From: Actinorugispora endophytica
GTDB lineage: Bacteria; Actinomycetota; Actinomycetes; Streptosporangiales; Streptosporangiaceae
Direction of reading: 5' to 3'
NCBI RefSeq assembly: GCF_004363075.1
Contig: NZ_SNYN01000004.1
Coordinates: 62,001-126,000, forward strand
Length of the DNA: 64,000 nt
The position numbers and the translations under genes were made by a program. Below are positions 2,581 through 9,355 of the stretch, in pieces. Positions within the stretch are counted from its first letter, which is position 1. Each line of letters begins with the position of its first letter. The notes under the pieces were generated by a model. It searched no databases and was not told the origin of the DNA. It saw only the letters and a list, made by a program, of their open reading frames with translations.

Positions 2581-2820
2581 CGCGATCCGCCGTCCGCGCC
2601 GCTGCGGTCGGAGCTGTCCGTCCACGGGCGCTCCCCCGGCCGGGTCGTCGAAGCGGGACCACTGCGGCCCCCTTCGGCGGGCCGCAGGAGAAGGCTGTCC
2701 GAATTTCGCTCGGTTCTGGAAAACGCGATCGCCTGGCCTTCGGATTCTCAGGTGCTGAGATCATTCATTGCCCGTCCGGGGCCGAGTCAGTATGCTTCCC
2801 CGGGTGCGTGGATATCCCTG

Positions 2821-2837
2821 TTGGCGCTTATCGCCAA
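2821..2837. promoter_or_regulatory. Inverted repeat upstream of the EctC-like cassette
   Basis: TTGGCG and CGCCAA form a perfect 6-bp inverted repeat around a 5-bp spacer, about 70 bp before the first gene of the cassette. The surrounding 2581-2907 stretch holds no gene and is noticeably more AT-rich than the flanks. A second short palindrome, GGTACGGTACC, sits at about 2861-2871 with a possible -10 (GATAACT) after it. The position suits a transcription-factor operator; no regulator gene is in the cassette. Confidence 0.4.
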
Positions 2838-2907
2838 TTAATCGGAATCGGCCGATCCAGAGGTACGGTACCCGATAACTGACCGAAACACGCAGTGGAG
2901 TCCGATA

Positions 2908-3294
2908 ATGCTCGTTCGCTCGCTCGCCGACGTCGCGGGGTCGAAATTCGATGTCGACTGGGGAAACGGGACCAGTGTGCGGCTGCTCACGGCGGCCGAC
3001 GCGATGGGGTTCACCGTCTGCCACACGGTCGTCCGCGCGGGAACCTCGTCGTACCTGCAGTACAGGGCGCACCGGGAGGCGTGCTTCTGCGTCTCGGGCG
3101 CGGGGACGATCGAGGACGACCAGGGCGTCGAGCACCGGATCACCCCGGGGGTCCTGTACGCCCTCGACGAGGGCGACCGCCATCACCTGCGCGCGGAACC
3201 GGGCGAGGACCTGGTCCTGCTGAGCGTTTTCAACCCTCCGCTCGAAGGAACGGAGCGGCACCTGCTCGACCGGGTCGAGGCCTCCTCCTACTGA
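2908..3294 (+). CDS. Ectoine-synthase-like cupin (solo EctC homologue)
   Basis: At 128 residues it has the length of EctC, the iron-dependent cupin that closes the ring of ectoine from N-gamma-acetyl-diaminobutyrate. The metal ligands known from EctC structures are all present at matching positions: Glu57 in AHREACFC, Tyr84 in LYALD and His92 in DRHHLRA; Arg25, Thr40 and the VFNPPL strand are also kept, while the cysteine just before VFNPP is Ser. No ectA, ectB or ectD is near. Instead it leads a five-gene cassette with an adenylating ligase, so it probably cyclises a different amide or amino substrate. GGAG lies shortly before the ATG. Family strong; substrate unknown. Confidence 0.85.
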   Translation: MLVRSLADVAGSKFDVDWGNGTSVRLLTAADAMGFTVCHTVVRAGTSSYLQYRAHREACFCVSGAGTIEDDQGVEHRITPGVLYALDEGDRHHLRAEPGEDLVLLSVFNPPLEGTERHLLDRVEASSY

Positions 3295-3312
3295 CCTCCA
3301 AGGCGGCCGAAC

Positions 3313-4875
3313 GTGAAATTCCACGAGTACTTCGAGAGTAACGCCGACGCGTTCCCGGAAAGAACGGCGGCGACCTTCGACGGGAAAAGCGTCGTTTACG
3401 GGGAACTGGACGCCCTGGCCGAGCGCCACCGCGCCGCCCTGGTGGGGCACGGGGCCCGCCCGGGCGACAGGGTCGTGCTGTACGCGGAGCTCTCGGCGGA
3501 GGCGGTCGCCGCCGTCATCGGGATTCTGAAGGCGGGGTGCGTCGTGGTCACGACCCACCCGTCGTTCGACCGGAGGAAACTCGTCCACCAGGCCAGGGAG
3601 GCGGACGCCGCGTTCCTGGTGACCGACCGTCCGGACGTTTTCGAGGGGGTCTTCGACGAGACGCCCCTCGACGCGGTCCTGCCCCTGGGCGGCGGACCCG
3701 AGGCGGAGCCGCTGCTCCGGCGGCGGCCCCCGGCCGTGCCCCGCAGCGACGACGCCGGAATCCCGCTGGAGGGAGAGCTGGCCGCGCTCTTCTACACGTC
3801 CGGCTCCAGCTCGGCCCCCAAGGGGGTGGCCGTCAGCCACGGCAACATGGTCGCCGCGTTCGAGGCGGTGACGTCGTACCAGGCCAACACGGCCGACGAC
3901 GTCGTCCTGACGTTCACGCCGATCGGCTCGGACTTCGGTTTCCACAACGTCATGATGCCGCTGGCCTTCGGCGGCCGCGTCGTGGCGTGCCGGGCCCTGC
4001 CCGAGGACCCGCGCGCGCTGATCGACCTGGTCGACCGCGAGAGGGTCACCGGCATACACGCCTTCCCCCCCGTGCTGGCGCGCCTGTGCGGCCTCGACGA
4101 CCTGCACCGGTACGAGGTGCCCTCGCTCCGGTACGTCTCGAGCAGCGGGCAGCGGCTGCCGGTCGAGCACATCAGGAGGCTCAGGGACGCGTTCCCCCGC
4201 GTCCTGATCCACTCGATGTACGGCCTGACCGAGTGCAAGAGGGTCGCCTACCTCCCGCCGGACGAGATCGACCGGCACCCGGACTCGGTCGGGCGGCCGC
4301 TTCCCGGGGTCCGCGCCCACATCGTGGGGGACGACGGCCGCCCCGTCACGGAACCCGGCGCCGTCGGGGAGCTCGCGGTGGCCGGGGACCTGGTCATGCA
4401 GGGCTACTGGAGGAGGCCCGAGCTGACCCGCCGGGTGATCCGGCGCGACGTCCTCGGCGAGTCCAGGCTGCTCCTCACCGGCGACCTCTTCCGGAGGGAC
4501 CGGGACGGCCTCCTGTACTGGGTGGCCCGGCGGGACGAGGTCTTCGCGCGCTCGGTGTTCAAGGTCGACCCGCACGAGGTCGAGGCGCGGATCCGCGAAC
4601 TCCCCGGCGTGGCGGACTGCGCGGTCGTCCCGGTCGCCGACGACTCCGCCGGGAGCGTCCCGGTGGCCTGCGTCGTCCCGCGCGACCGCGCCGGGGTGGG
4701 GGAGAGGGAGGTCATCGACCACTGCGCGGAGCGGCTCGACTGGCACATGGTCCCGGCGAGGGTCGTCTTCCACCGGAGGCTGCCGCTGACCGCGTCGGGG
4801 AAGACCGACAGGCGGGCCCTGGCCCGCGCGCTGGAGGAGTCCGGACGGGACGGGGCGAAGGGAGGGGCGCGGTGA
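3313..4875 (+). CDS. AMP-forming ligase / freestanding adenylation enzyme
   Basis: A 520-residue member of the acyl-adenylate superfamily that would activate a carboxylic or amino acid as an AMP ester for thioester or amide formation. Visible core motifs: A3 FYTSGSSSAPKG (160-171), A5 MYGLTECKRVAYLPP (from 302), A7 LLLTGDL (386-392) and A10 LTASGKTDRRAL with the catalytic Lys497. The TECKRVAYLPP signature recalls carrier-protein ligases of the prolyl-ACP type and exosortase-associated ligases. The A8 loop reads ARRDEVFARSVFKVDP and lacks the usual IK step. It follows the EctC-like gene by 18 bp and overlaps the next gene by 4 bp. AGG arginine codons cluster here (around 4171-4190), unusual for the window. 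No carrier protein is visible beside it. Confidence 0.85.
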   Translation: MKFHEYFESNADAFPERTAATFDGKSVVYGELDALAERHRAALVGHGARPGDRVVLYAELSAEAVAAVIGILKAGCVVVTTHPSFDRRKLVHQAREADAAFLVTDRPDVFEGVFDETPLDAVLPLGGGPEAEPLLRRRPPAVPRSDDAGIPLEGELAALFYTSGSSSAPKGVAVSHGNMVAAFEAVTSYQANTADDVVLTFTPIGSDFGFHNVMMPLAFGGRVVACRALPEDPRALIDLVDRERVTGIHAFPPVLARLCGLDDLHRYEVPSLRYVSSSGQRLPVEHIRRLRDAFPRVLIHSMYGLTECKRVAYLPPDEIDRHPDSVGRPLPGVRAHIVGDDGRPVTEPGAVGELAVAGDLVMQGYWRRPELTRRVIRRDVLGESRLLLTGDLFRRDRDGLLYWVARRDEVFARSVFKVDPHEVEARIRELPGVADCAVVPVADDSAGSVPVACVVPRDRAGVGEREVIDHCAERLDWHMVPARVVFHRRLPLTASGKTDRRALARALEESGRDGAKGGAR

Positions 4876-5903
4876 GCGAGGAAGCGCTGGAGCAGGGGAG
4901 CCCCCTGCGGGACTACGTCGAGGGCTCCGCCATGACCGCCCTGGTGGAGGAGTTCGACTCCCTGGCGACCGGCCGCAACCAGATCCCCGCCCGGCCGGTC
5001 CGCTCCACCGTCAGGGACCGGGTCCACGACCGGGCGCTGCTCGACTACCAGGACATGATGACCGAGCGCTCCGGGCCGCTCTTCCGGCACTTCCTGGCGA
5101 GCGTCCCGGGCATCCTGGAGGAGATGTCGCGCGTGGGCACGGTGCTGTCGCGCCTGGCCGAGCGCTGGTCCGAGCAGGAGGGCCGCGGCCTGACCTTCTA
5201 CGAGGGCGACGCCTTCGACGGGACCAACGGGCGCACGCTGGCGGCCGTGTCGCGGGGGCGGATCACGACGCTGACGTCCTCGCCCAACCGCGCGAACGAG
5301 CCCTGGTTCCGCACCTTCGCGGACCCCGCCGTCTCGCGGTACTTCCCCGGGTCGCTCTTCGAGCTGACCACCGACGTGCTGCGCGGGAGCGAGGAGTACC
5401 GGCCGTTCCGCGACGGCGTCGACTTCTTCTACGAGACGGCCGCGTTCCAGTTCTACGGAAGGGACCGCGACCGGCAGGTCGCGCACGTCGCCGACTTCCT
5501 GCGGCCCGACGGGATCGCCTTCTTCCTGGAGAAGCTCGACCACCCGGACCCGGCCGAGTACGAGCGCAGGGAGGACGTCAAGGACGGCGTCCACAAGGCG
5601 CTGTACTTCTCGCCCGAGGAGATCGAGTGGAAGCGCGGGCGGATGCTGTCCCGGATGAGCGACGGCCAGGTGACCCTGGAGGAGCTGGCCGGCGTGCTGG
5701 GCCGGTTCTTCGACCACGTCTTCCTGATCTGGAACGGGACGAACTTCTACGAGGTCGCGGCCTCCAACAGCGCCGGGAGACTGCGCGAGTTCCTCGAGGT
5801 CTCGGGGCAGCCCGTCATCCCCGACCAGTTCTGCTGTGAGACACCGGTCGTCCGCCGCATCGGAGGGCGCCAACAGGAGGAGGAACCGTGGCAGACGACG
5901 TGA
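4872..5903 (+). CDS. Putative SAM-dependent methyltransferase of the EctC-like cassette
   Basis: A 343-residue protein starting at a GTG that overlaps the ligase stop codon (GTGA arrangement), so translation is coupled. The middle looks like a class I methyltransferase: a degenerate motif I FYEGDAFDGTNGRTLA near residue 115, then LTSSPNRANEPWF, VDFFYETAAFQFYGRDR and the post-motif strand FLRPDGIAFFLEKL. The long helical N-terminus and the C-terminal tail (PVIPDQFCCETPVVRR) are not familiar. The weak glycine loop leaves open that it no longer methylates. Its place inside the operon suggests it modifies the product of the ligase or cyclase. Confidence 0.65.
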   Translation: MSEEALEQGSPLRDYVEGSAMTALVEEFDSLATGRNQIPARPVRSTVRDRVHDRALLDYQDMMTERSGPLFRHFLASVPGILEEMSRVGTVLSRLAERWSEQEGRGLTFYEGDAFDGTNGRTLAAVSRGRITTLTSSPNRANEPWFRTFADPAVSRYFPGSLFELTTDVLRGSEEYRPFRDGVDFFYETAAFQFYGRDRDRQVAHVADFLRPDGIAFFLEKLDHPDPAEYERREDVKDGVHKALYFSPEEIEWKRGRMLSRMSDGQVTLEELAGVLGRFFDHVFLIWNGTNFYEVAASNSAGRLREFLEVSGQPVIPDQFCCETPVVRRIGGRQQEEEPWQTT

Positions 5904-7012
5904 CCCCGCAGGCGGGGGAGCGGATCGACGCGCTGGCCGGGAGGTGGCGGGAGCGGGCCGCCCGCACCGCGCGGACCGGGACGCTGCCCGCGGAGACGCT
6001 GGAGGAGCTGTTCGACGCGGGCCTCCTCCAGTTGGCCGCCGCCGAGCGGTACGGCGGCCTCGGCGCGGCCTGGCCGGTCCTGGCCGACGCGGCGCGGCGC
6101 GCGGCGCGCGCCTGCCCGTCGACCGGGTGGACGGTCGGCGTCGTCGGCGCGCACGCCGGCGTGGCGAGCCGGTTCCCCGACGCCGCGGCCGGGGCGCTCT
6201 TCGCGGACGGGCCCCGGCAGCTGTTCGCGACCGCCTCCGTCACCGCGAACGGCGTGGTCGAACGGGTGGAGGGCGGCTTCCGGATCGACGGGGAGTGGCG
6301 GTTCTGCTCGGGGATCGACCACGCCTCCTGGGTGATCGTCAACGGCGCCTGCGCGAACGCCCCGGAGGAGGGACGGCTCCTCCTCCCGGTCCCGGCCGAC
6401 CGGGTGCGCGTCTCGGACACCTGGCACGTGACGGGGATGTCGGGGACGGGGTCCAGGAGCGCCGTCCTGGACGACGTTCTTGTTCCGGAGAAGTCGGTCG
6501 CCCCTCTCGGCGCGTGCTTCGGGGAGCGCTGGACGGGACGGGCGGGGGAGGACGGCTACCTCCTGGAGGTCCCGTTCACCGACTACGTGAACAGCGTGGT
6601 CATCGGCCCGATCCTCGGCTGTGCCGAGGGCGCCTACCGCGAGTACGCGGCCTCGGCGCGGGCCTCGGGCCGGGCCGACCAGCCCGCCGTCCAGATGGGG
6701 CTGGCGGAGAGCGCGGCGGAGCTGGCCTGCGCCGGGCACCTGTACGACGCGGTGGCGGCCACGCTGCACGCCGCCGGGACGGAGCGCCGCGCGCTCTCGC
6801 CGAAGGAGGCCGGGACGGTCAGGCGCGACCGCGCCTACCTCGCCCGCCTGTGCGTCGACGCGGTCCAGCGGCTGGTGGCGCTGGCGGGCACGGCCGCGCA
6901 CTCCGAGGACGCGGTGCTCTCCCGCCACTGGCGGGACCTGCAGATGATGGCGGCGCACCGCGACGTGAGCTGGGCGGCCAACTACCCGGCCTTCGCGGCG
7001 GTGGACGCCTGA
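5888..7012 (+). CDS. Acyl-CoA-dehydrogenase-fold flavin oxidoreductase/monooxygenase
   Basis: A 374-residue protein of the acyl-CoA dehydrogenase superfamily, closest in layout to the two-component flavin monooxygenases (HsaA/KijD3-like group D) rather than to beta-oxidation enzymes. It shows LQLAAAERYGGLGAAWPVL, WRFCSGIDHASWVIVNG and DTWHVTGMSGTGSRSAVL (GMSGTGS loop of this group). The beta-oxidation catalytic Glu context is absent. It starts at a GTG with the strong AGGAGGAGG site and overlaps the upstream gene by 16 bp. Likely role: hydroxylation, N-oxidation or desaturation of the cassette product; the reductase partner would be elsewhere. Confidence 0.75.
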   Translation: MADDVTPQAGERIDALAGRWRERAARTARTGTLPAETLEELFDAGLLQLAAAERYGGLGAAWPVLADAARRAARACPSTGWTVGVVGAHAGVASRFPDAAAGALFADGPRQLFATASVTANGVVERVEGGFRIDGEWRFCSGIDHASWVIVNGACANAPEEGRLLLPVPADRVRVSDTWHVTGMSGTGSRSAVLDDVLVPEKSVAPLGACFGERWTGRAGEDGYLLEVPFTDYVNSVVIGPILGCAEGAYREYAASARASGRADQPAVQMGLAESAAELACAGHLYDAVAATLHAAGTERRALSPKEAGTVRRDRAYLARLCVDAVQRLVALAGTAAHSEDAVLSRHWRDLQMMAAHRDVSWAANYPAFAAVDA

Positions 7013-7014
7013 CC

Positions 7015-7048
7015 CCCTTCCCCGCCGGTCGCGACCGGCGGGGAAGGG
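7015..7048. terminator. 34-bp perfect palindrome after the flavoprotein gene
   Basis: Two 17-bp arms (CCCTTCCCCGCCGGTCG and its exact complement) meet with no spacer, 3 bp after the stop codon. There is no T-run. It could be a transcription attenuator that lowers expression of the MFS gene beginning at 7081, or an mRNA-stabilising hairpin. Confidence 0.6.
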
Positions 7049-7080
7049 CCGGTGACCGCACGAGAGAAGGCCTACGGACG

Positions 7081-8304
7081 ATGCCGACCCGCCACGCCGG
7101 CCTCCCGCGCGCCGCGAGGGGGCGGCTCGCCGGCGGGTTCCTGCTCTTCCTCCTCTCCTCCTTCGGGCAGACGTTCTTCGTCTCGCTCTTCTCCGACGAC
7201 ATCCGCGCCGACCACGGCCTCTCCCACGGCGGGTTCGGCTCGCTCTTCATGCTGGCGACCCTTGCCGGGGCGCTGGCCCTGACGAGGGTCGGCGGGGTCG
7301 TCGACCGGTGGAGCGCGCGCACGGTGGTGCTGGTCTCGGTCCCGGCGCTCGCGCTGGGCGCGGCGGCGATGGCGCTCGCGACGCACGTGCTGACGCTCTT
7401 CCTCGCCCTGTTCGTCCTGCGCCTGTTCGGGCAGGGGATGATGACGCACACGTCCTTCACCCTGATGGGCCGGTGGTTCGACCGGGGGCGGGGGCGCGCC
7501 ACGTCGGTGGCCGCGCTGGGCCTGAACGCGGGGGAGGCGCTGCTGCCCCTGGCGGTCGTCGCGGTGGCCGCCGCCGCGCGGTGGCGCGAGGTGTGGTGGC
7601 TGGCGGCCGCCGCGGTGCTCCTCTCGCTCTGGCCGCTGGTCGCACTGCTGGGAGGGGGGCGCGGGCCCGGCGGCCGTCCCGGGGAGCGGCCCGCGCGCGG
7701 CGCCCGCGACCGGACCCGCCGGGAGGCGCTGCGCGACCCGGGCTTCCACCTCCTCGTCGCGGCGATGGCGGCCCCGGCCCTGGTCGGCAACACCGTCTTC
7801 TTCCACCAGGCCCACCTGGGGGAGCTGCGGGGTTGGCCGCCGGAGGTCCTGGCGTCGGCCTTCACCGCCTACGCGGCGGTGACGGTCGTCGCGAACCTGG
7901 CGGGCGGCCACCTGGTGGACCGGTTCACCGCGCTGCGGACGGTGCCGTTCTACCTGCTGCCGCTCGGCTGCGGGCTGCTCGTGCTCGCCGCGGTGGACGA
8001 GCCGTGGGGCGCCTTCGCCTTCATGGCGCTGTACGGCGTCACCAACGGGCTCTCGCTGGGCCTGTTCGGCGCGGTGTGGCCGGAGATGTACGGGACGGCG
8101 CACCTGGGGGCGATCCGCTCGGTGGTGGTGGCGGTCCTGGTGTTCGCGTCGGCCGCGGGCCCGGGCGTCACCGGTCTTCTGATCGACGCCGGGGTCGCCT
8201 ATCCGCCCCAGGTCGCGGCGCTGGGCGCCTACTGCCTGGCCGCGTCCCTCGCCGCGGCCGCCGCCACCCGCGCCCGTCGGGGGAGCGGCTCCCGTCCGCG
8301 CTGA
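7081..8304 (+). CDS. MFS transporter, probable product exporter of the cassette
   Basis: A 407-residue, 12-segment major facilitator protein, with the loop 2-3 motif region GGVVDRWSART and a central hydrophilic stretch (GRGPGGRPGERPARG, about residues 195-215) dividing two six-helix halves. The ATG at 7081 lies 68 bp after the flavoprotein, on the far side of the 34-bp palindrome. Being the last gene of a small biosynthetic-looking operon, it most likely exports the product or confers self-resistance. The hairpin at 8325-8346 would end the transcript. Confidence 0.8.
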   Translation: MPTRHAGLPRAARGRLAGGFLLFLLSSFGQTFFVSLFSDDIRADHGLSHGGFGSLFMLATLAGALALTRVGGVVDRWSARTVVLVSVPALALGAAAMALATHVLTLFLALFVLRLFGQGMMTHTSFTLMGRWFDRGRGRATSVAALGLNAGEALLPLAVVAVAAAARWREVWWLAAAAVLLSLWPLVALLGGGRGPGGRPGERPARGARDRTRREALRDPGFHLLVAAMAAPALVGNTVFFHQAHLGELRGWPPEVLASAFTAYAAVTVVANLAGGHLVDRFTALRTVPFYLLPLGCGLLVLAAVDEPWGAFAFMALYGVTNGLSLGLFGAVWPEMYGTAHLGAIRSVVVAVLVFASAAGPGVTGLLIDAGVAYPPQVAALGAYCLAASLAAAAATRARRGSGSRPR

Positions 8305-8324
8305 CGGGGAGGGCCTGCCGAACT

Positions 8325-8346
8325 CCCGTGCGGCCTCCGGCACGGG
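8325..8346. terminator. Hairpin between convergent MFS and metalloprotease genes
   Basis: CCCGTGC and GCACGGG pair around an 8-base loop, 20 bp after the MFS stop codon. No T-run follows. It is placed to stop transcription from the cassette side; the minus-strand gene ends 140 bp further on. Confidence 0.45.
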
Positions 8347-8485
8347 GCCGGCGCGCGGGTGGACGGACCGGACCCCGGGCTTGTCCGGTCGAGGGGATCA
8401 CAGGGGCGTCCGGACGGACGTGGGGCCGGGGGCCGGTTCGCGGCACCTCCTCCGGATACCGAACGACCCCCGCGCCGGAGCTTCC

Positions 8486-9355
8486 CTAGGCGGACACGGC
8501 CTGGAAGCTGGCCAGCGGAGGGCCGTAGACGAGTTGCGAACCGGCGCGGTCGACGTCGGTGATCGCGAGGTCGCGCGCCCCCACGCCGCCGCAGAAGTAG
8601 TGCATGACCGACTTGGGGTCGTAGGCCGTCAGGTCCAGGGTCCCCGTGGCGTCCTCGTCGGGGCACACCGCGGGCGCGCCCGAGCTGATGTGCTCGTGCC
8701 GGAATCCCAGGGAGTGTCCGAGCTCGTGCCGGAGCACCCCCACGTGGTCGAAGTCGGTGTCGTGGTACGACGGGTCGATGAGCACCCGGCGCCGGTGGGC
8801 GGGGTCGTTGGGGAAGAACGCCGAGGCGATGAACGCCCCGTTGGCGTTGATGTGCCGAACGGGGAACAGGACCTCGGGCGGGCGCAGGGACTCGCTGCCG
8901 TCGGCCGAGTCGACGTACCGGAACTCCACCCCGCAGGTCATGGACCAGTCGCCGGTGGCCAGCAGCATGTTCTCCACCACCTCCTCGTACCACTCGCTCC
9001 TGGGGAACGTCCGCCGGAGCACGCAGTAGCTGAGAACGGTTCCGGGCGCCCAGCGGACGAGCTTCCCGCCCTCGACGATGCCGATGAGCGCGCTGGGCTG
9101 GCCGACGGACCCGCCGATCGCGGTCTGGGCGAACCTGGCCCTCTCCACCAGCCGGGCGGTCTCGCGCAGCGCCCTCTGGGCCTCCTGGTAGAGGTCGAAC
9201 TCGTCGGCGTCCAGGAGCAGGTCGCCTTCGACGGGGTGCAGGACCTCGTCGTCGACGGAGACGCCCGTCCGCCGGAGCTCCGGCGACGGGGCGCCGTCCG
9301 CGGTCCTCGCGCCGGGGACGACCGGGGTCTCACGTTCCGTTGCCCTCTCCACCAT
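8486..9355 (-). CDS. Matrixin-like zinc metalloprotease (metzincin)
   Basis: A 289-residue protein with the full metzincin zinc site HELGHSLGFRH (His210, Glu211, His214, His220) and a Met-turn at SVMHYF (Met251). It should be a zinc-dependent endopeptidase. Upstream of the catalytic region are about 100 residues with FRYVDSADGSES and VLIDPSYHDT, as in M10/M57-type enzymes. No signal peptide is obvious at the N-terminus, which is unusual for this fold, so it may act in the cytoplasm or be exported by a non-classical route. Its start lies inside the end of the 91-residue gene (26-bp overlap), suggesting a coupled pair such as protease and inhibitor or chaperone; that is inference. Confidence 0.8.
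   Translation of the reverse strand: MVERATERETPVVPGARTADGAPSPELRRTGVSVDDEVLHPVEGDLLLDADEFDLYQEAQRALRETARLVERARFAQTAIGGSVGQPSALIGIVEGGKLVRWAPGTVLSYCVLRRTFPRSEWYEEVVENMLLATGDWSMTCGVEFRYVDSADGSESLRPPEVLFPVRHINANGAFIASAFFPNDPAHRRRVLIDPSYHDTDFDHVGVLRHELGHSLGFRHEHISSGAPAVCPDEDATGTLDLTAYDPKSVMHYFCGGVGARDLAITDVDRAGSQLVYGPPLASFQAVSA

Follow-up and report, generated by a model that had tools for sequence, protein, structure and literature searches.

What does an ectoine-synthase relative do when its gene lies outside any ectoine operon, and do the genes beside it form a pathway with it? The question is raised by positions 2908-8304 of the window, by which we mean the whole 64,000-nucleotide stretch of Actinorugispora endophytica contig NZ_SNYN01000004.1 (positions 62,001-126,000, forward strand) that was analysed. 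Re-reading of the open reading frames (ORFs) agrees with the original prediction of five plus-strand genes with internal overlaps of 4 and 16 nucleotides (nt), the former between the genes of an adenylating ligase and a protein with a methyltransferase (MT) fold, the latter between the MT-fold gene and that of a flavoprotein; an EctC-like cupin gene precedes them and the gene of a major facilitator superfamily (MFS) protein follows. This cassette is real, conserved and apparently undescribed, a variant of known pathway types. That its five genes are dedicated to one small exported metabolite, which is not ectoine, has in our judgement about an even chance of being correct, and the chemical steps proposed for it below are those that we infer.

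The recurrence of the gene set was followed through loci whose MT-fold protein is at least 50% identical, which gave ten (the window, L007, L012 and L019-L025). Seven come from a scan of genome contigs with a three-sequence alignment and two peptide patterns, which does not amount to a full count: Nocardiopsis ansamitocini, Streptomyces smyrnaeus, Streptomyces sp. CB02400, S. boncukensis, N. alkaliphila, Bradyrhizobium aeschynomenes and Agrobacterium larrymoorei. The remaining three are the window, genome G302 (L012) and Agrobacterium vitis plasmid pRvVAR031a (L007). Each locus was counted once, L005 and L071 being parts of L012 and L002-L004 and L055 parts of the window, and L056 and L057, which match stretches of L019 and L023 at 100% identity, were not counted again.

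In all ten loci, the genes of the cupin, the ligase, the MT-fold protein and the flavoprotein adjoin one another, as expected of the self-contained, conserved pathway that had been proposed around an EctC relative outside any ect operon. The MFS gene also keeps its proposed place, since an MFS protein of one of two kinds adjoins in every locus. The actinobacterial loci (7/7) have one strand, the order cupin-ligase-MT-flavoprotein-MFS and the window's MFS type, and the G302 locus has the same five genes in an order identical to that of the window. The rhizobial loci (3/3) keep the four genes, but the cupin gene is on the opposite strand, beside another MFS protein that is common to all three (Pfam check on L007 alone); the window's MFS protein gave no tblastn match in these three loci at 1e-4. 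Because the rhizobial loci have a different MFS protein, an exporter is kept though its kind varies. The ligase and the MT-fold protein are fused in L012 (862 residues) and L021 (841 residues). The loci group alike in the trees of the ligase, the MT-fold protein and the flavoprotein, with one weak branch in the ligase tree (58) and one in the flavoprotein tree (12). Between the first 14 kb of the window and the actinobacterial loci (L022 being only 9 kb long), no further gene is shared at 80 bits or more. The gene set exceeds chance, since it recurs in other genera and in another phylum. A RidA-family gene is additionally common to L007 and L025.

The cassette is rare and patchy and was most likely moved horizontally. 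A search of 394 genomes of the class with the MT-fold protein matched three: the window's own, G302 and, as a weak fragment of 51 residues (E 4e-4) outside the ten-locus count, G179 (L006/L013). An eight-sequence MT alignment matched 3 of 297 genomes of the window's order, the window included, and 1 of 99 genomes of the order of G302, which was G302 itself; the single protein as query matched 1 of 41 relatives, the window itself. On plasmids, tblastn with this protein matched 199 records and led to the cassette neighbours on pRvVAR031a. The patchy spread and the unlike flanks fit horizontal movement of the cassette. Acquisition had originally been suspected from AGG-rich codon use in the ligase. 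The enrichment itself is found: AGG makes up 0.28 of the Arg codons of the ligase (16 of 58), and the mean of 20 automatically chosen long ORFs of the window, the ligase included, is 0.091, with the ligase highest of the 20; the argument from it is weak, as the ligases of relatives lack the excess (0.04-0.16) and the third-position G+C content of the window's ligase, 0.96, is like that of the window. For these reasons the AGG codons were dropped as proof of acquisition, and the patchy spread with no shared flanks is better evidence of transfer.

Is the cupin then the ectoine synthase of its host? It belongs to the Pfam family Ectoine_synth (117 bits, cut-off 27). The original prediction noted ectA, ectB and ectD as absent, which is right for the cassette; elsewhere in the same genome, ectA, ectB, ectC and ectD lie together on contig 1 (NCBIfam matches over cut-off). 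The window's genome and all five named actinobacterial carriers each have a second gene of the Ectoine_synth family, which scores 176-187 bits (the cassette cupins score 109-125); these second genes are called canonical by score, and the ect context was checked only in the window's genome. N. alkaliphila has a third such gene (131 bits), the second copy of G302 (L062) sits in the EctC group of the tree described below, and in the two rhizobial genomes tested the cassette cupin is the sole Ectoine_synth gene. Across the class, Ectoine_synth matches occur in 51 of 246 genomes, at 171-197 bits, then seven at 113-142 bits and then three below the cut-off.

Phylogeny of the cupin against true EctC was the check proposed with the original prediction, and a tree built from 55 cupins is divided by one branch (100/99) into a side of 20 rows, which are cassette or solo cupins, and a side of 35 rows, on which the whole EctC group (33 rows) lies, so that the cassette cupin stands outside this group. 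The 35-row side consists of these 33 (32 different), assigned by score and homology, and two divergent rows; the EctC rows taken from other genomes, 32 in number, represent tblastn segments and not whole genes, two of them identical and from the same genome, and L066 was shortened to 130 residues. Because the actinobacterial hosts carry another EctC and the tree splits at 100/99, the cassette cupin is, as judged from its sequence, not the host's ectoine synthase: it belongs to a separate lineage, with the metal site intact and the substrate-contact positions changed.

The iron ligands Glu57, Tyr84 and His92, which had been noted as kept in the window, occur in every one of the ten cassette cupins, as they do in the 10 other cupins on the same side of the tree. 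Arg25, Tyr52, His55 and Phe108 are likewise kept in all ten cassette cupins, and Thr40 in nine. On the other hand, position 21 is Gly in 10/10 cassette cupins versus Trp in 33/33 EctC-group rows, and position 38 is Cys in 10/10 versus His in 33/33. In nine of the ten, a Trp is found at position 18 and Ser replaces the conserved Cys at position 106. In the EctC of P. lautus, Trp-21 and Asn-38 contact the substrate, Asn-38 through the substrate carboxylate, and the change of Trp-21 to Ala leaves 9.7% activity (PMC6344544). The changed position 38 would fit a substrate whose carboxylate has already been amidated (by the ligase) or methylated, with Arg25, a contact through water, being kept.

The ligase contains an AMP-binding domain (264 bits) and an AMP-binding_C domain. 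Its best matches in the PDB are adenylation (A) domains of nonribosomal peptide synthetases (NRPS), where linear gramicidin synthetase reaches E 3e-77 when its two A domains are combined (best single domain 7e-43), and the stand-alone protein 3wvn gives E 2e-61. The pocket Asp and the catalytic Lys are present in 10/10 ligases; by motif we take them to be positions '235' and '517', the Asp presumably being the residue that holds the alpha-amino group in A domains. No carrier protein is encoded among the five shared cassette genes, and one elsewhere in the genome is possible. The substrate may also be an acid without an amino group, because the best NCBIfam match of the ligase is an exosortase-associated acyl-CoA ligase model (326 bits, under the cut-off of 592).

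At E <= 0.001, neither Pfam nor NCBIfam gave a match to the third protein; in the alignment of its family, which has 13 members, 5 reach Methyltransf_11 with E <= 1 (0.0008 at best). A model predicted from eight sequences (pLDDT 84) has a Rossmann-type MT fold. Superposition gives a Z score of 20.0 with CmoA (2.8 Å over 222 residues), 19.6 with the CmoA homologue YecO, 19.3 with CysG (2.6 Å over 209 residues) and about 19 with BelI, and the fold is common, Z being at least 8 for 999 of 1000 chains aligned to the model. CysG and BelI are, we assume, the O-methyltransferases of cystargolide and belactosin. The 13-sequence profile of the family matches CmoA at E 0.0013 and YecO at 0.064, and the matches beyond that are chance-like. 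The binding motifs for S-adenosylmethionine (SAM) were judged by sequence position, with the strands taken from the predicted model. The place of the motif-I glycine is occupied by Asp113 in 10/10 cassette proteins (Y-E-x-D-A-F-D-G after strand 1), and the acid expected after strand 2 is replaced by Thr or Ser in 13/13 family members; in three distant relatives the motif-I glycine is present and the strand-2 acid is still missing. From the modelled fold, SAM use by the third protein is probable. Of the original description as methyltransferase-like, the fold, which is CmoA-like, stands; with the SAM motifs being odd, methylation is a putative activity.

Distant relatives of the MT-fold protein are also found on plasmids. 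One of about 31% identity is encoded beside a LysE-family translocator on E. coli plasmid pSCU-106-6 (L018, 4297-5689), and this pair is perhaps a two-gene unit for making and exporting an amino-acid-like compound. Among the 199 plasmid records with a match, 25 are from Escherichia and 2 from Salmonella, and of the six listed, five have a length of about 5.7 kb. On rhizobial plasmids, the genes of relatives at 33-34% identity (L010, 7980-8978; L011, 7953-8966) adjoin those of an AraC regulator and an MFS protein, near traR or traA.

For the fourth protein, the predicted acyl-CoA-dehydrogenase fold is found (Acyl-CoA_dh_2, 67 bits), and the closest kin are two-component monooxygenases of the HsaA type and not dehydrogenases. 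Its best NCBIfam match is HsaA (187 bits, cut-off 450), and its best PDB matches are 3afe ('Hydroxylase, putative', E 8.8e-38), 2rfq ('3-HSA hydroxylase, oxygenase', E 9.7e-37) and XiaF (5lvu, E 3.2e-30). HsaA-type oxygenases need a separate reductase; no flavin reductase is encoded among the five cassette genes. The candidate exporter matches MFS_1 with 119 bits.

From these assignments a route can be proposed. The carrier-free, A-domain-like ligase would adenylate an alpha-amino acid and join it to an amine. The MT-fold protein would modify the substrate or the product of the ligase, in the simplest case by SAM-dependent methylation of a carboxylate or an amine. The metal of the cupin would bind the amide carbonyl, an amino group would attack and water would be lost, giving a cyclic amidine. 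Oxygen would be added by the HsaA-like monooxygenase, which would draw on a flavin reductase encoded outside the cassette, and the MFS protein would export the product, which is plausibly a small molecule of the cyclic amidine kind. The order of the three steps between ligation and export is a guess.

Several observations weigh against this route. Cyclisation by the cupin is something that we infer from homology and the metal ligands. The MT-fold protein is without the usual SAM motifs, so the step assigned to it may be of another kind. In three loci, the cupin gene is transcribed divergently, together with the exporter gene. The cassette cupins are not one group in the tree, the rhizobial ones joining rhizobial solo cupins (97/93); since the rhizobial cupin genes are divergently transcribed and group with non-cassette rhizobial cupins, the history of the cupin may differ from that of the other three genes. 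In the cupin of G302 (9469-9855 in L012), the residues at positions 18, 23, 40 and 106 that the other nine keep, including the near relative L021, have been lost, and the other four cassette genes of G302 have open frames; because of these losses, the step of the cupin in G302 may be decaying or may not be needed. Finally, the cupin scores above the cut-off of the NCBIfam model NF009806 'ectoine synthase' (140 vs 128 bits), and orphan EctCs keep most ectoine-synthase residues, those that bind ligands included, one of them, from P. syringae, having given ectoine in an ectC mutant of H. elongata (PMC6344544, PMC5924519), so the cassette cupin may yet have an ectoine-type activity.

The last two points, the acceptance by the ectoine-synthase model and the activity of an orphan EctC, would agree with the cupin being a salvage or spare ectoine synthase and the other four genes an unrelated neighbouring pathway. 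We regard this as very improbable, in view of the linkage in 10/10 loci over two phyla, the other EctC of the actinobacterial hosts and the changes at positions 21 and 38; ectoine salvage or a broken ect operon was rejected as the principal explanation, as the actinobacterial carriers have another EctC and the neighbours are conserved. The cupin might also cyclise a primary carboxamide, that of glutamine or glutamine amide, to a five-membered aminopyrroline comparable to 5-amino-3,4-dihydro-2H-pyrrole-2-carboxylate (ADPC), after which the ligase would couple the acid to an amine or amino acid. EctC of Halomonas elongata forms ADPC from L-glutamine, but with very low efficiency and with the equilibrium on the glutamine side (PMC5924519). 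A stand-alone ligase with no carrier gene adjoining fits coupling after ring closure, but Cys38 in 10/10 speaks against a free alpha-carboxylate in the cupin pocket, although Arg25 is kept, and such a glutamine-based order of events appears rather unlikely. A different chemistry of the cupin altogether seems to us a fairly improbable solution, be it reverse hydrolysis, isomerisation, or an N-N/N-O rearrangement of an O-aminoacyl hydroxylamine supplied by the ligase and the monooxygenase. ADPC formation by EctC is reversible (PMC5924519), and the outline of the cassette resembles PyrN-type N-N chemistry in that an adenylating enzyme and a metal cupin are joined by what may be an N-hydroxylase (PMC8664883). 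However, the zinc ligands of the PyrN type (Asp63/His65/Glu69/His103 in RHS1; PMC8664883) have no counterpart in the window cupin, which contains no [HD]xHxxxE motif and has the EctC set Glu/Tyr/His instead, and Pfam and NCBIfam both class it with ectoine synthase. An N-N-forming cupin was rejected for this difference in ligand set.

The remaining alternative concerns the MT-fold protein, which could be a SAM-consuming cyclase or a 3-amino-3-carboxypropyl transferase, as are AzeJ/VioH and nicotianamine synthase, and not a methyltransferase. We consider this unlikely, while giving weight to Asp113 of the cassette proteins and the missing strand-2 acid, and to the plasmid-borne relatives beside a LysE-family translocator (one E. 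coli plasmid) or MFS and AraC genes (two rhizobial plasmids), an arrangement that would suit an enzyme which by itself makes an exportable compound. Against it stand the nearest folds, CmoA and CysG/BelI. AzeJ/VioH (PMC11794875) are named neither among the profile matches up to E 5 nor, like nicotianamine synthase, among the 50 fold matches listed, an absence that decides nothing. In a bolder form, the protein would take the 3-amino-3-carboxypropyl (2-aminobutyrate) unit from SAM, and the cassette would build a diaminobutyrate-like skeleton without EctA and EctB; this is quite improbable. If true, it would be a second, independent route to ectoine-type cyclic amidines, followed by flavin oxygenation and export as an antimetabolite or a signal. 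The idea that the MT-fold protein is a 1-aminocyclopropane-1-carboxylate synthase of the GnmY kind was dropped, since GnmY is described as a pyridoxal-phosphate enzyme (PMC10491745, PMC7277169).

The features of the locus are collected in Table 1.

Table 1. Genes and repeat of the cassette, in window positions.
Feature	Position	Strand	Remarks
EctC-like cupin	2908..3294	+	128 aa, ATG start; Glu57/Tyr84/His92, Gly at 21, Cys at 38
AMP-forming adenylating ligase, NRPS-A-domain type	3313..4875	+	520 aa, GTG start; pocket Asp '235', catalytic Lys
SAM-methyltransferase-fold protein	4872..5903	+	343 aa, GTG start; nearest folds CmoA/YecO, CysG/BelI; atypical SAM-binding motifs
HsaA-like flavin monooxygenase (acyl-CoA-dehydrogenase fold)	5888..7012	+	374 aa, GTG start
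Perfect 17-bp inverted repeat	7015..7048	.	between flavoprotein and MFS genes
MFS transporter, putative exporter	7081..8304	+	407 aa, ATG start

The RNA of the inverted-repeat region (7008-7062) folds with -37.1 kcal/mol (z -4.5). The predicted flavoprotein and MFS genes of L012 and L021 share 4 nt, which leaves no room for such a repeat. Scans of 2600-8600 for sigma-70-type promoters and T-tailed terminators gave 0 and 0 sites (expected 0.1 and 1.4) and are uninformative at the G+C content of the window. Downstream of the cassette, a metalloprotease-like gene (8489-9355, minus strand) scores 22.5 bits with Astacin, at the cut-off of 22.5, and 21.9 bits with Matrixin, below the cut-off; it is not common to the related loci.

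In searches of an open-licence library, some of them aimed at EctC relatives (subscription papers, preprints and MIBiG lay outside this scope), we found neither a product nor a described pathway of the cassette kind, in agreement with the original statement that no pathway with this five-gene set was known. Nor did this library support pathways of the anthelvencin/kikumycin type as a precedent for EctC relatives. Within the data searched, the five-gene set was nowhere assigned to a product, and the cupin did not fall within ect-linked EctC with the rest of the set unconserved. The cassette could show what orphan ectoine-synthase relatives do: it gives one orphan-EctC branch a fixed, small set of partners on a 6-kb fragment, and because this set fits such a fragment, expression combined with mass spectrometry can address the function of an orphan EctC directly. 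Should the cupin prove to be a cyclodehydratase, cyclic amidines would have a metal-cupin route that lies outside osmoprotection, and genome mining would gain a handle.

How does the cassette compare with known systems? The third protein has CmoA, a carboxy-SAM synthase, and CysG/BelI as its nearest folds and CmoA as its best profile match, and differs from them in its low identity (14-16%), an extra N-terminal helical part and the changed SAM motifs. The flavoprotein finds its best NCBIfam and PDB similarity among the two-component flavin monooxygenases HsaA and XiaF, and differs from HsaA in scoring well under the cut-off given above and in having no reductase gene in the cassette.

Other clusters also bring together an adenylating ligase, an orphan EctC-like cupin and a protein of acyl-CoA-dehydrogenase fold. 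In Burkholderia stagnalis (L017, 7215-15208) and in the actinobacterial genome G242 (L065, 8128-13108), these stand with a carrier protein (in L017 at 20.0 against a cut-off of 20.8) and a transglutaminase-like protein; in L065 the latter and the acyl-CoA-dehydrogenase were named from translation, without a profile. Both clusters differ from the cassette in having the carrier and the transglutaminase-like protein and in giving no match to the MT-fold protein, and the cassette flavoprotein had no tblastn match in either at 1e-3. On rhizobial plasmids, solo cupins are found near biotin-carboxylase-like (ATP-grasp) or polyketide synthase genes. Ligation beside an orphan EctC thus recurs and is not universal, which supports a shared chemistry without proving it.

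Some further neighbourhoods were observed. L017 is also annotated with a pseudouridine-5'-phosphate glycosidase, a HAD hydrolase and an MFS protein, as if for a C-nucleoside. On Sinorhizobium plasmids, the solo cupin gene of L008 (8001-15992) adjoins the polyketide synthase genes, and that of L016 (9001-18384) is about 6 kb away. On S. meliloti AK83 plasmid pSINME01 (L015, 1372-9387), a pair of a biotin-carboxylase-family gene and an EctC-like cupin gene occurs twice with the same protein accessions. Genome G003 has two orphan-like cupins (L063 and L064) among genes that give no ligase-type lead.

With canonical EctC, the cassette cupin shares the Ectoine_synth family, the iron ligands, Arg25, Tyr52, Phe108 and mostly Thr40; it differs in that no ectA, ectB or ectD adjoins, in its place outside the EctC group, in Gly21 and Cys38, and in the Ser that takes the place of Cys in 9/10. 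Orphan EctCs, as described by Czech et al. (2018/2019), are found in a sizeable share of ectC-bearing genomes, lie outside ect clusters, often have Ser at position 104 and in some cases have the Trp shifted by two; their function is called unclear by these authors (PMC6344544, PMC5924519). The cassette cupins resemble them in lying outside ect clusters, in the Ser (9/10) and in the Trp shifted to position 18 (9/10). This shift is of three positions in the present alignment versus two for the orphan EctCs (PMC6344544), a difference that gap placement could explain. By these sequence features, the cassette cupin would fit into the orphan EctC group. Unlike the orphan EctCs as they are described in the relevant parts of these papers, where no pathway is given (PMC6344544, PMC5924519), the cassette cupin has fixed biosynthetic partners and an exporter.

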